NCBI RefSeq assembly: GCF_013377085.1
Contig: NZ_JACAAX010000051.1
Coordinates: forward strand, 1-46,833
Origin: Rhodoplanes sp.
GTDB lineage: Bacteria; Pseudomonadota; Alphaproteobacteria; Rhizobiales; Xanthobacteraceae
DNA: 46,833 nucleotides
Direction: 5' to 3'
Part shown: one piece after another, positions 41,494 through 44,939 of the stretch
How positions within the stretch are numbered: the first letter of the stretch is position 1
Layout: every line of letters starts with the position of its first letter
The notes under the pieces: generated by a model
Database searches by the model: none
Seen by the model: the letters and a program-made list of their open reading frames with translations, nothing else
What the model was told of the DNA's origin: nothing
Made by a program: the position numbers and the translations under genes

Positions 41494-41735
41494 CGACGTG
41501 CTCGCTCGCTGTGGGACGACGGGCCTCTAGCAGATCGGCTCGCCTCGGGCCATGCCGGATCGCCGGCCCGGTCGCCGCCGGGGGCGCCGCGGGCGCGCCG
41601 AAATCGCCGCTGCTGCAAGGTTTTCGCGAGGCGCCTGCAGCCGTTTCCCCAGGTCGCGAGGCCGACCGCCGCGGTCATCTCCGTAATCCCCCGGCACGAC
41701 GATCGTAACACGGCCGCGCTATGTATTCATGAACG

Positions 41736-41766
41736 TTGACACTTGGGTGCGTCAAGTTAGCATTAC
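41736..41766 (+). promoter_or_regulatory. Predicted puc promoter with shared dyad operator
   Basis: TTGACA (41736-41741), 8 bases, CGTCAA (41750-41755), then CATTAC at 41761-41766. The dyad is TTGAC-N10-GTCAA. TTGACA also reads as a -35 element, with the CATTAC region 18-19 bases further as a weak -10, so a bound dimer would overlap the promoter. The same arrangement occurs at 43155 and 44069. The pucB start is 336 bases downstream of CATTAC. Confidence 0.7.
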
Positions 41767-42101
41767 ATCAATACGGTGTAGCGCCGCCGACGAGGATGGA
41801 TCAAGCAATAATTCGTCACGCTGATTGACTTCCGGAGTGTCTCCGAGGGCGACATTGACGCTGCTTCGGGTCGTTTGAACGACTGCTGCAGCAGTTCCTC
41901 GGGCCAGAGACGAACGAATACGCTCCAGGAGCCCGGCCGAGCCGTGGCGAAAGCTTTTGTGTCCGATCGCCGGCCTGCACCGTAACCGTTGTCTCCCCTG
42001 GCGCGCCCGGGGGAGTGGAGGTCGCGGCGATCCTGCCGCGACAAACCCCGCCGTACGGGCGCCGAGCGGCGTCCCGAGGCAACCCTGTGGAGGGTAATTA
42101 G
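41767..42101 (+). other. Long structured leader of pucBA
   Basis: About 335 bases between the predicted puc promoter and pucB without a convincing gene. It can fold into several stems: GTCGTT-2-AACGAC (41870-41883), CTCCCC-11-GGGGAG (41993-42015), and a perfect 8-bp GTCGCGGC-6-GCCGCGAC (42021-42042). A weak second dyad, TTGAC-N10-GTC, lies at 41855-41872. The ribosome site GGAGGG is at 42089-42094. Confidence 0.45.
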
Positions 42102-42248
42102 ATGGCTGAACCAACCCGGAGCTTGTCCGGCTTGACCGAGCAGGAAGCGGTCGAGTTCCACGCGCAGTTCAAGACCACCTTCAGCGCATTCGTCGTCATC
42201 GCGGTTCTCGCCCACGTTCTCGTGTGGGCGTGGAAGCCGTGGTTCTGA
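42102..42248 (+). CDS. pucB: LH2 antenna beta polypeptide
   Basis: Binds bacteriochlorophyll a and carotenoid in the peripheral antenna ring, spanning the membrane once. The 48 residues (SLSGLTEQEAVEFHAQFK, then TTFSAFVVIAVLAHVLVWAW, then KPWF) hold the B850 ligand His38 in AHVLVW, a second His20, and the terminal Trp47. It closely resembles the beta chain of Phaeospirillum molischianum LH2 (recalled sequence starting AERSLSGLTEEEA). GGAGGG lies 7 bases upstream of the ATG. The pucA start follows after 15 bases. Confidence 0.96.
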   Translation: MAEPTRSLSGLTEQEAVEFHAQFKTTFSAFVVIAVLAHVLVWAWKPWF

Positions 42249-42263
42249 TCGGGAGACATCAAC

Positions 42264-42443
42264 ATGGCCAACCCGCAAGACGACTACAAGATCTGGCTGG
42301 TGATCAACCCGTCGACTTGGCTGCCGGTGATCTGGATCGCGGCGCTGCTCGTCGCGATCGCCGTGCACTCCTTCGTGCTCAACAATCCGCGCTACAACTT
42401 CATCGATCAGAAGGCCGCGGCCGAGAAGATCGAGAAGAAGTGA
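42264..42443 (+). CDS. pucA: LH2 antenna alpha polypeptide, molischianum type
   Basis: Partner of PucB in the LH2 ring. The 59 residues begin [20 protein letters not shown], nearly the P. molischianum alpha chain ([19 protein letters not shown]), including the Asp at mature position 6 that ligates B800 there. The B850 ligand is His at mature position 34 (IAVHSFVL). The C-terminus differs: [10 protein letters not shown] stands where molischianum has AAPGFNWIAL, so the Trp (mature 45) that hydrogen-bonds a B850 acetyl group is Phe here, while a Tyr appears two residues earlier. GGGAGA precedes the ATG at 42264. Confidence 0.96.
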
Positions 42444-42457
42444 TCTAGGCGAGCGTA

Positions 42458-42487
42458 CCGGGATAGGCCGACAACGGCCGATCCCGG
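42458..42487 (+). terminator. Hairpin at the end of pucBA
   Basis: CCGGGAT-A-GGCCG-ACAA-CGGCC-G-ATCCCGG: 12 pairs around one mismatch and a 4-base loop, 15 bases after the pucA stop. No T-run follows. It probably ends or protects the puc message, as 3' stems do in other puf/puc operons. Confidence 0.75.
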
Positions 42488-42684
42488 ATCGCCGATCCTC
42501 CTCGAGGAGTCGTTTCGTCGCCGCGCCGCCGCGACCGTGCCGGGCGATCCCGTGCCGGCTGGGGTGACGCGGACTTCCGACGGAGCGGCAAGCTGCCGGT
42601 GGACCGCTCACGCGGATTTCGGGCTCTCTCCGACCCGAGCCCGTCGTGACCGGTCCTTCGGCTGTTCGCCGCGAGGCGACGATC

Positions 42685-42928
42685 ATGCATCATGTCGCCA
42701 AACTGCTCGAAACCTTGTCCTCGCTGCCGGTGAACGTCGCAGTTCTTGAACCCGACGGGACGATCAGCGAGTTGAACAGGGCGTGGCGGGCGTTCGCCGC
42801 GGCCACCGGCCGCTGACGCCGGACGCCTGCGTCGGCGCCAACGACTTCGACGTCTGCGAGGCCGAACAAGCGAAGGCGCTGCGCGACCTGGTCGCCCGCC
42901 GCCGCGACGTGCGCTCGGGGCCCGCATA
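42685..42928 (+). pseudogene. Frameshifted, truncated PAS-LuxR regulator
   Basis: An ATG at 42685 opens 43 codons (LPVNVAVLEPDGTISELNRAW) that match the PAS start of the two intact regulators (NVTVLDPDGTIVETNATW). It ends at TGA 42814. Shifting frame at 42816 continues the homology (CVGANDFDVCEAEQAKALRDL against GVGADYLAHCTSEQAVGLGAV) until TAG at 42926. The rest of the PAS and the whole DNA-binding domain are missing. No copy of the TTGACA dyad precedes it. The bases from 42929 to 43154 hold no gene that I can support. Confidence 0.8.
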
Positions 42929-43154
42929 GATGCGGGCGGCCGCGACGCCGCAGCCTGGTCCGACCGGCTGAACTGAACGCCCCGACGCTCGACAATGACC
43001 GCGGCGCCCAACAGAGCGCCCCTTCGCTTCGGTGGAATCGGCAGGAGCCCATCCATCTGCTCCCGAAAGTGGCGAGGTGGCGGTGGTCACGGCCATCGTG
43101 CCGTCGCCGGCCGGAGCCGCTGGGACTAGACTCGGCGTGTAGGTGTTCACACGG

Positions 43155-43185
43155 TTGACACCATGAACTGTCAACTACACATTAC
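43155..43185 (+). promoter_or_regulatory. Promoter/operator of the first PAS-LuxR gene
   Basis: TTGACA (43155-43160), 8 bases, TGTCAA (43169-43174), then CATTAC at 43180-43185. Perfect 6-base arms, extended to GTTGACA/TGTCAAC. The spacing to CATTAC is the same as at the puc and second regulator promoters. The gene starts 64 bases downstream. Confidence 0.75.
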
Positions 43186-43248
43186 AAGCATCGATGTCAC
43201 GGGCGGGCCGCCGGCTCATCCGCTCCGCCGCGCATCTGGTGTCGACCC

Positions 43249-44010
43249 ATGACCATGCTCGCCTTGCCGCTGGAGTCCGTGGTGTCGGTGCCGCTCCAGG
43301 TGGCGGTGCTCGATCCGGGCGGCCTCATTCGCGAGGTCAATGCCGGCTGGCGCAATTTCGCGGCCGAGGGCGCGCCCGGTCTGCCGGGCGCCGGCGTCGG
43401 TGCCGACTACCTGGCCCATTGCACGTCCGAGCAGGCCGTCGGCCTCGGCGCCGTGATCGGCGGCCGCTGCGACATCTTCACGGCGGTTTATCCTTGTCAC
43501 GCCGCCGACCTGACCCGCTGGATGCTGATGGTCGGTCTGCCGCTGTCGCCCGGGCGGCCGCGGCGCATCGCCGTGATGCATCTCGAGGTCTCGGCGCTGC
43601 TGCCCTTCGATCCCGGCCGCGACGTGCTGCGGGCGACGCATTTTCCCGAGGTGCTGCCGGCCAATACGCTCGACGCCATCGTCCATGCGGTGGAGCACGC
43701 GATCGCCCGCACCATGCCGCATTCCCCGTCCGGGCCGGTGCCGGCCGCGAGCGCGCCACTGCGCTGCGCCGCAACGCCGTCGCCGCCCGTCACCGCAGGC
43801 CTGCCCAAACGCCAGCGCGAGGTGCTCACGCTGCTCGGCGAAGGCATGAGCAATGCCCAGATCGCCGGCGCGCTCGGCATCTCGATGAACACCGCCAAGC
43901 TGCACGTCTCCGCCGTGCTGCGGCGTCTCGGCCTCGGCAACCGCATGCAGGCCGTCGCGCTCGGCGCCCGGCTTTCGACCGTCCGCGTCGAGTCGGCCGC
44001 CGCCGAATAG
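43249..44010 (+). CDS. PAS-LuxR transcriptional regulator (copy 1)
   Basis: A 253-residue regulator. Residues about 12-120 form a PAS sensor (VAVLDPGGLIREVNAGWRNF, VGADYLAHC, YPCHAADLTRWMLMVGLPL). Cys in YLAHC and YPC correspond to cysteines in the second copy. A linker with an HAVEHAIARTMPHS helix follows. Residues 185-245 form a LuxR/GerE helix-turn-helix (LPKRQREVLTLLGEGMSNAQIAGALGISMNTAKLHVSAVLRRLGL, read in parts). No response-regulator receiver domain is present, so the PAS itself must sense the signal (redox, oxygen or a ligand). The matching dyad upstream suggests self-regulation. The ribosome site before ATG 43249 is weak. Confidence 0.85.
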   Translation: MTMLALPLESVVSVPLQVAVLDPGGLIREVNAGWRNFAAEGAPGLPGAGVGADYLAHCTSEQAVGLGAVIGGRCDIFTAVYPCHAADLTRWMLMVGLPLSPGRPRRIAVMHLEVSALLPFDPGRDVLRATHFPEVLPANTLDAIVHAVEHAIARTMPHSPSGPVPAASAPLRCAATPSPPVTAGLPKRQREVLTLLGEGMSNAQIAGALGISMNTAKLHVSAVLRRLGLGNRMQAVALGARLSTVRVESAAAE

Positions 44011-44068
44011 CCGCGGACGCTCACGCGCCCGCCGCATGGCCACGGCGCCAATCAACCGATCGTTCCGA

Positions 44069-44099
44069 TTGACAAGCGCAGTTGTCAATCTCACCTTAC
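44069..44099 (+). promoter_or_regulatory. Promoter/operator of the second PAS-LuxR gene
   Basis: TTGACA (44069-44074), 8 bases, TGTCAA (44083-44088), then CCTTAC at 44094-44099. Perfect arms, extended to ATTGACA/TGTCAAT. The hexamer starts 25 bases after the first T of the dyad, as in the other two sites. The gene starts 46 bases further on. Confidence 0.75.
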
Positions 44100-44144
44100 G
44101 GTCGGGCTGAACCAACCCGGTTGCAGTCCCGCGGGGGACCCGCA

Positions 44145-44939
44145 ATGCAGATAGCCCTGGCACGGTTCGAGACGTTGCGCGCGCTCGCCGTCAACGTCAC
44201 CGTGCTCGATCCGGACGGCACCATCGTCGAGACCAACGCCACCTGGCGGGACCCCAGCCCCGCCAACGGGGCGACGTTGCCGGATGGCGGGCGCGGCCTC
44301 AATTACCTGTCGCTCTGCCCGCCCGAGCGGGCGCGCCAGCTCGAGGCGCTGATCGAGGGCCATTGCGACCTGTTCACCTGCGTCTATGCCTGCAGGTCCG
44401 CGCGCGACACGCGCTGGATGCTGCTGGTCGCGGTCCCGCTCGACGACACCAGGCCGCGCGGCGTCACGCTCCTGCACGTGAACCTGTCGGGGCTGTTGCC
44501 CTTCGACATCGCCCGCGAGGGCTTGCGGGCCCTGCACGCGCCCGAGGCTGTTCCGGCCCCGACGCTCGACGCCATCGTTCACACCATCGAGGACACCATC
44601 GCGCGCTCGATGGGCCAGGGTCGATCGGCGGCAGGCCCGGGCGCCGTCGCGGGGCCGGTGGCGGCCGCGGGAGCGGGCACCGCAGCGGACGCGACCGCGG
44701 AGCGGTGCGCCGAGGCCGGGTCGGAGCCGGTGTCGATCGTCGATCAGTTCCCGAAGCGCCAGCGCCAGGTGTTCCGGCTGCTCGGCGAGGGGCGCAGCAA
44801 CGGCGAGATCGCCGCGGCGCTCGGCATCTCGGCCAACACCGCGAAGCTGCATGTGGCGGCGGTGCTGCGCCGGCTCGGCCTCGACAACCGCATGCAGGCC
44901 GTGGCGCTCGCCGCCCGCGTCACCGGCGAGCCGAGCTGA
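44145..44939 (+). CDS. PAS-LuxR transcriptional regulator (copy 2)
   Basis: A 264-residue paralogue of the regulator at 43249. PAS region: VTVLDPDGTIVETNATW, LNYLSLCPPERARQLEALIEGHC, YACRSARDTRWMLLVAVPL. An Ala/Gly-rich linker (PGAVAGPVAAAGAGTAADATA) is longer than in copy 1. The GerE domain FPKRQRQVFRLLGEGRSNGEIAAALGISANTAKLHVAAVLRRLGL (read in parts) has almost the same recognition helix as copy 1, so both should bind the same site. The ATG at 44145 is chosen over an in-frame TTG at 44082, which lies inside the operator. The rpe gene converges 21 bases downstream. Confidence 0.87.
   Translation: MQIALARFETLRALAVNVTVLDPDGTIVETNATWRDPSPANGATLPDGGRGLNYLSLCPPERARQLEALIEGHCDLFTCVYACRSARDTRWMLLVAVPLDDTRPRGVTLLHVNLSGLLPFDIAREGLRALHAPEAVPAPTLDAIVHTIEDTIARSMGQGRSAAGPGAVAGPVAAAGAGTAADATAERCAEAGSEPVSIVDQFPKRQRQVFRLLGEGRSNGEIAAALGISANTAKLHVAAVLRRLGLDNRMQAVALAARVTGEPS

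Follow-up and report, generated by a model that had tools for sequence, protein, structure and literature searches.

Introduction

Operators of the repressor PpsR/CrtJ are palindromes of the form TGT-N12-ACA, and bchC of Rhodobacter capsulatus has a pair of them at -47/-30 and -21/-4, 8 bp apart (PMC5362033, PMC6199135). Rubrivivax PpsR binds a degenerate tandem of the same kind, (TGa-N12-ACA)-N8-(cGT-N12-ACA) (PMC4452267). In Rhodopseudomonas palustris the LuxR-family regulator LhfA, encoded beside pucBAd, is needed for expression of pucBAd (PMC6879726). Here we analyse a window, the whole 46,833-nucleotide stretch of Rhodoplanes sp. contig NZ_JACAAX010000051.1 (assembly GCF_013377085.1), that carries the light-harvesting complex 2 (LH2) genes pucBA and two genes, called gene 1 and gene 2, for regulators with a PAS-like N-terminus and a LuxR-type (GerE) C-terminus. 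A preliminary description had proposed that both PAS-LuxR proteins bind a 20-bp dyad found upstream of pucBA and of each regulator gene. We predict from the sequence instead that the three sites are PpsR (CrtJ) operators at which PpsR represses pucBA and both PAS-LuxR genes together, and give this a probability of about 0.8.

Three sites in the window

TTGAC-N10-GTCAA was found by pattern search at exactly three places in the window, 41736, 43155 and 44069, and in none of 100 dinucleotide shuffles of it; the three sites are non-random. The preliminary description was right about these positions and about the absence of other window copies, and also in placing the start of C(A/C)TTAC exactly 25 bases past the first T at all three. 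C(A/C)TTAC is not a box of its own: with the right arm of the dyad it forms a palindrome of the TGT-N12-ACA type (CGTCAAGTTAGCATTACA, TGTCAACTACACATTACA and TGTCAATCTCACCTTACG), from which two of the three deviate by one letter. "Directly upstream" suits the PAS-LuxR genes, which start 94 bp (gene 1) and 76 bp (gene 2) from their dyads, but not pucB, 366 bp downstream of the first site. The genome-wide search that had been suggested as a check confirms that the dyad is not random, with four exact places in 6.48 Mb against one for a reversed-pattern control; this and the other scans of the same genome were pattern searches. The fourth place (G000:C25:10017) lies 137 bp upstream of a gene resembling high-potential iron-sulfur protein (HiPIP)/Iro genes.

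Each site can be read, on the plus strand, in the register of a tandem PpsR operator. The pucBA operator (41724-41767) consists of a degenerate upper palindrome TAT-N12-ACA (41724-41741), a gap of 8 bp and a lower palindrome CGT-N12-ACA (41750-41767), with the dyad at 41736-41755. For gene 1 the operator spans 43143-43186, with the dyad at 43155-43174, the lower palindrome TGT-N12-ACA at 43169-43186 and no outer left half-site, and for gene 2 it spans 44057-44100, with the dyad at 44069-44088 and the lower palindrome at 44083-44100. The lower palindromes (CGT-ACA, TGT-ACA and TGT-ACG, respectively) stay within the single-letter departures tolerated in PpsR/CrtJ sites, and the inner half-site of the upper palindrome is in register at 8 bp in all three. 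In this reading the apparent 20-bp dyad arises because the inner half-sites of the two palindromes face each other across this gap. At pucBA, TTGACA fits a -35 and TAGCAT a -10 hexamer, so that the operator appears to cover the -35 and the spacer, a position that suits a repressor, as the preliminary description had also noted. With a transcript start 35 bases past the first T of TTGACA, the three sites would coincide in position with the R. capsulatus bchC operator.

Two matrices recover the sites. For the first we searched the 200 bp upstream of bchC with a model taken only from the literature, TGT-N12-ACA-N8-TGT-N12-ACA, in the best 30 loci of the 48 bchC-bearing genomes among 391 genomes of the family, a sample in which nearer relatives weigh more. 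At all 30 a tandem site is present that departs from the model at 0-2 of 12 letters. The 25 of these loci that are not from Rhodoplanes gave 19 distinct sites, from which a 44-bp matrix was made. It places the three window sites in the first three ranks, and their starts (41724, 43143 and 44057) fall in the register expected; the scores are 38.1 bits (pucBA), 7.6 (gene 1) and 6.9 (gene 2), against a best of -0.4 in 20 first-order random windows. The second matrix was built from 13 PpsR sites mapped by chromatin immunoprecipitation sequencing in Rhodobacter sphaeroides (the first 13 of the 19 rows of Table 2 in PMC4344238; the six rows left out are at hypothetical genes or away from genes). Its seven best of 93,632 window positions all fall within the three sites. 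The lower palindrome of gene 2 ranks 1 on the minus strand and 7 on the plus strand, that of gene 1 ranks 2, and at pucBA the lower palindrome ranks 4 and the upper 6.

A conserved unit of three half-sites

Lining up the sites of the genus gives a conserved unit larger than the dyad, TTGACA-N8-YGTMAA-N6-WTKACR, with three half-sites in 32 bp, of which the last two make the PpsR/CrtJ palindrome TGT-N12-ACA. In four further genomes of the genus (G001-G004) the orthologous promoters carry the dyad, except that an additional puc operon in G003 departs from it by one mismatch. The proposal that pucBA and both PAS-LuxR genes have one operator type in common is supported, and within the genus this operator type is kept at their orthologues.

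At no more than one mismatch the unit occurs at nine loci of the window's own genome: four puc operons (contigs C26, C34, C47, which is the window, and C51), the two PAS-LuxR genes, bchC (C35), hemA (C15) and the HiPIP/Iro-like gene (C25). A tenth match is the 43155 site overlapping on the opposite strand. The genome has five puc operons; at the fifth, on C28, the unit is not reached at three mismatches, the lower palindrome is kept as CGT-N12-ACA, and the upstream element described below is present with one mismatch. At two mismatches C51:21281, C20:3393 and C10:103402 look like background, with no photosynthesis query match nearby; the remaining places overlap the C25 site or lie in the carotenoid and bchE region of C35.

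A three-half-site array stands before hemA, for 5-aminolevulinate synthase, in all five near-complete Rhodoplanes genomes (L054:4925-4956 on G000:C15, other strand). It points away from hemA, which merely puts the half-sites in the other order. The HiPIP/Iro-like gene at C25 (L005:5018-5427) encodes a protein of the twin-arginine translocation (TAT) type, and the third half-site of its operator reads TTGTCA. The product matches the NCBIfam Iro model at E=2.8e-16, below that model's cut-off, and no Pfam model at E<=0.001.

Nine genomes of six other genera, selected for carrying the unit in a search of the 391 family genomes, each have one copy at bchC (9/9), and five of them also at puc-like genes. 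In five of the nine (four genera) no full-length PAS-LuxR match was found at E<=1e-12, only the GerE part being matched. Among 41 annotated unit loci outside the genus, overlapping ones counted, 30 have bchC, crt, bchO, puc-like or ppsR genes next to them. In several family genomes (G216:C280, G083:C1, G333:C26, G397:C77 and others) the pattern search hits clustered GTCA-type repeats, which resemble a different palindromic site.

Weighing the readings

Several observations weigh against reading the sites as PpsR operators. The outer left half-site is weak or absent (TAT, GTG and CGA at the three sites), and the upper palindromes rank 6, 1226 and 39 of 93,632 with the R. sphaeroides matrix. At gene 2 the core of the lower palindrome is off TGT/ACA by one to two of six letters in all five genomes, while the dyad is exact in all five. 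The bchC matrix owes part of its match to -35/-10 sequence that the promoters share. Because the 32-bp unit itself derives from Rhodoplanes sites, the results obtained with it in the own genome, in the 391 family genomes and in the nine genomes selected from these are not independent of those sites. Nor is the unit restricted to phototrophs: a match with at most one mismatch occurs in 113 of the 391 genomes, against bchC in 48, and at 11 of the 41 annotated outside loci no photosynthesis query matched nearby.

The last such observation concerns the distribution of the exact dyad within the genus. Our operator table holds 25 entries (16 puc operons, four of gene 1 and five of gene 2); it does not cover hemA, bchC, the HiPIP/Iro-like gene or the puc operon of C28, and in the relatives it includes only those puc operons that were located through the unit. 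Of the 14 operators in the PAS-LuxR cluster 13 have the exact dyad, against none of the 11 other unit-bearing puc operators, including two on G004:C11 that were counted outside the cluster although they adjoin a GerE-type homologue. A second protein besides PpsR could therefore read the dyad. Most of the non-cluster operators miss it through GTAAA in place of GTCAA, and both sets of letters are present in R. sphaeroides PpsR sites (PMC4344238). Tandem duplication probably gave rise to the cluster sites, and the 13 of 14 should not be counted as 13 independent events.

An alternative that is compatible with PpsR at the dyad region places the PAS-LuxR proteins elsewhere, as activators beside RNA polymerase at an LH2-specific element, TAR-N11-TAYGTATT; we regard it as possible, with the odds some way against it. 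At pucBA the element lies at 41706-41727 on the plus strand, 8 bp upstream of the -35. It recurs at a fixed offset with at most one mismatch, and with a varying 11-bp spacer, in all 16 tabulated puc operators of the genus, and the 13 exact matches in six Rhodoplanes genomes all adjoin puc operators. It is absent from the gene 1 and gene 2 promoters (7-9 mismatches). Outside the genus, the 11 puc-facing operators on our list carry TGT in its place, which is the outer half-site for PpsR, and the 21 sites listed show 4-10 mismatches to the element. Its TACGTA resembles the class GTAMGTAG obtained for FixJ by in vitro SELEX (systematic evolution of ligands by exponential enrichment; PMC4999443), and no link of TACGTA to pucBA or light-harvesting was found among the literature matches listed. 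We propose the PAS-LuxR proteins here because the exact element adjoins puc operons and has FixJ-like letters, and because R. palustris pucBAd requires LhfA for its expression. This choice of binder is a guess, however, and at one mismatch the matches to the element do not outnumber those to a reversed control; moreover, related promoters are perhaps alike through descent.

In the circuit first proposed, TTGAC-N10-GTCAA would be the binding site of PAS-LuxR dimers, through which the two regulators govern their own and each other's genes and repress pucBA; PpsR might compete for the same DNA. This circuit seems improbable to us. What remains in its favour is the concentration of the exact dyad in the cluster, together with the presence of a roughly 20-bp dyad both at the regulator genes and at their supposed target, as expected of a LuxR/GerE operator. 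The near identity of the two recognition helices, which had been part of the proposal, holds well: the region NTAKLHV of the GerE domain is invariant in all 12 aligned proteins. However, the operator is not confined to genomes with the regulator, the unit standing at bchC in the five selected genomes without a full-length homologue. Even the exact dyad is found at bchC in two of 11 loci checked outside the genus, G072, which has no full-length PAS-LuxR match, and G101, which was not tested for one. Of 19 listed PAS-LuxR-type homologues outside the cluster 14 were tested, and none has the dyad within 400 bp upstream, the best having three mismatches; the best PpsR-matrix scores upstream of outside homologues, 11.4 and 11.2, are below the null maximum of 15.9 (60 mononucleotide shuffles, 400-bp stretches). 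The dyad sites are also the best matches of the PpsR models, and the probable duplication reduces the weight of the cluster count. The dyad is thus probably not a LuxR operator.

That the sites are only strong sigma-70 promoters, with TTGACA and TAGCAT 16 bp apart and the rest accidental, is very improbable. In its favour, TTGACA-N16-TAGCAT fits a promoter at 10 of the 16 tabulated puc operators; but a sigma-70 promoter leaves no place for the conserved YGTMAA half-site in the spacer, and at the PAS-LuxR genes the -10 letters vary (ACACAT, TAACCT, CGACGT and others) while the half-sites stay. FixK/FNR-type sites have half-sites spaced as in TTGAT-N4-ATCAA. We rejected this type for the mismatch in spacing.

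Proposed regulation

Two ppsR genes, scoring about 533 and 517 bits against a cut-off of 275, lie in the photosynthesis cluster of this genome, whose bchC, hemA and four of five puc operons have the unit in common. Some 200 bp separate the second ppsR gene from a following phytochrome gene, in which no kinase domain is recognised, a neighbourhood reminiscent of the BphP1-PpsR2 pair of R. palustris, in which far-red light antagonises PpsR2 (PMC6899989).

In the mechanism that we propose, a palindrome of the TGT-N12-ACA type would lie over the -10 at each site, and the -35 hexamer TTGACA would double as the inner half-site of another palindrome, 8 bp further upstream. PpsR would bind in its oxidised form or in darkness and cover the promoters, so that pucBA and the two PAS-LuxR genes would be repressed within a single regulon that includes bchC and hemA. 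Antenna and regulators would be derepressed together when oxygen is low, or in far-red light sensed by the bacteriophytochrome encoded next to the second ppsR gene, the PAS-LuxR proteins then forming a second, LH2-specific layer. A full two-layer LH2 switch, in which PpsR gates the antenna and PAS-LuxR genes and the PAS-LuxR proteins act at TAR-N11-TAYGTATT, which at all tabulated LH2 promoters of this operator type has replaced the outer half-site for PpsR, is more tentative still than the placing of these proteins at the element. Were it true, a global redox/light repressor and a local sensor would meet on one 60-bp promoter.

Comparison with known systems

Two TGT-N12-ACA palindromes, 8 bp apart, one over the -35 and one over the -10, make up the R. 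capsulatus bchC operator (PMC5362033, PMC6199135). The Rhodoplanes sites can be read in equal register, and bchC of the present genome has that tandem layout. The Rhodoplanes puc and PAS-LuxR operators differ in that the outermost half-site is degenerate or replaced, and in that the targets include PAS-LuxR genes. The crtI operator of Rubrivivax gelatinosus, which is PpsR-bound, has similar degenerate letters and the 8-bp spacing, though at another gene in another organism (PMC4452267).

For the PAS-LuxR proteins, VqmA and EL222 (PAS/LOV-GerE) are among the best full-length solved-structure matches to a predicted model of gene 1, with at most 17% identity and low full-length TM-scores; ligand and DNA site are not comparable. 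LhfA itself has a receiver domain (REC-LuxR). The likeness to the LhfA/pucBAd locus is that a LuxR-family regulator adjoins LH2-type genes, and the difference is that the pucBAd neighbours include, by a figure legend, receiver-domain relay proteins and phytochromes, whereas the Rhodoplanes proteins have a PAS-like domain (PMC6879726).

No prior description of a Rhodoplanes LuxR/light-harvesting circuit was found in the open-access literature, most subscription papers being outside the search. What is new is modest: judged by their promoters, the PAS-LuxR genes of Rhodoplanes seem to belong to the PpsR regulon, and beside the operator there is an element specific to LH2. An apparent new LuxR circuit becomes a readable extension of the PpsR regulon, in which the repressor appears to control dedicated PAS-LuxR regulators along with antenna genes. 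The locus also illustrates how a tandem operator can mimic a 20-bp dyad through the facing inner half-sites of two palindromes, and the element offers a concrete DNA target for finding the function of the PAS-LuxR proteins.

Genes of the locus

All window genes below are on the plus strand. pucB (42102-42248, LH2 beta subunit; Pfam LHC E=1.7e-10) and pucA (42264-42443, alpha subunit; LHC E=3.1e-7) would have a leader of about 330 bp, 41771-42101, from the likely start site to pucB. Such long leaders are usual in the genus, where the tabulated puc operators stand 276-719 bp upstream of pucB. As a candidate RNA element in the leader we looked for Rfam matches in 41600-44200 and found none up to E=0.1.

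After pucA comes the remnant of a third PAS-LuxR gene (42646-42929), two pieces of which match PAS-LuxR residues 1-39 and 43-76 (PAS_4 E=0.0037, below cut-off); the gene at the same place in G001, G002 and G003 is full-length and without inner stops. Gene 1 (43249-44010; GerE E=3.5e-15) and gene 2 (44145-44939; PAS_4 E=1.9e-8, GerE E=3.6e-14) encode proteins that are 53% identical. The N-terminal PAS domain is recognised by Pfam in gene 2; gene 1 has no Pfam PAS match and is PAS-like by alignment of its N-terminus with that of gene 2 and by a fold model, which gives a PAS-like domain and a helical GerE domain (mean pLDDT 74.6, pTM 0.49) joined by a linker of low confidence; no ligand was predicted. 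Homologues of the two PAS-LuxR genes were named in Rhodoplanes tepidamans, R. elegans, R. serenus and 'Rhodovulum sp. PH10'. On G004:C11 a further GerE-type homologue (L044:5537-6235) lies directly upstream of two puc operons. The gene 1 promoters have an upstream block of their own (43125-43147 in the window), CTAG followed by AGGTGTT, common to the four genomes tabulated.

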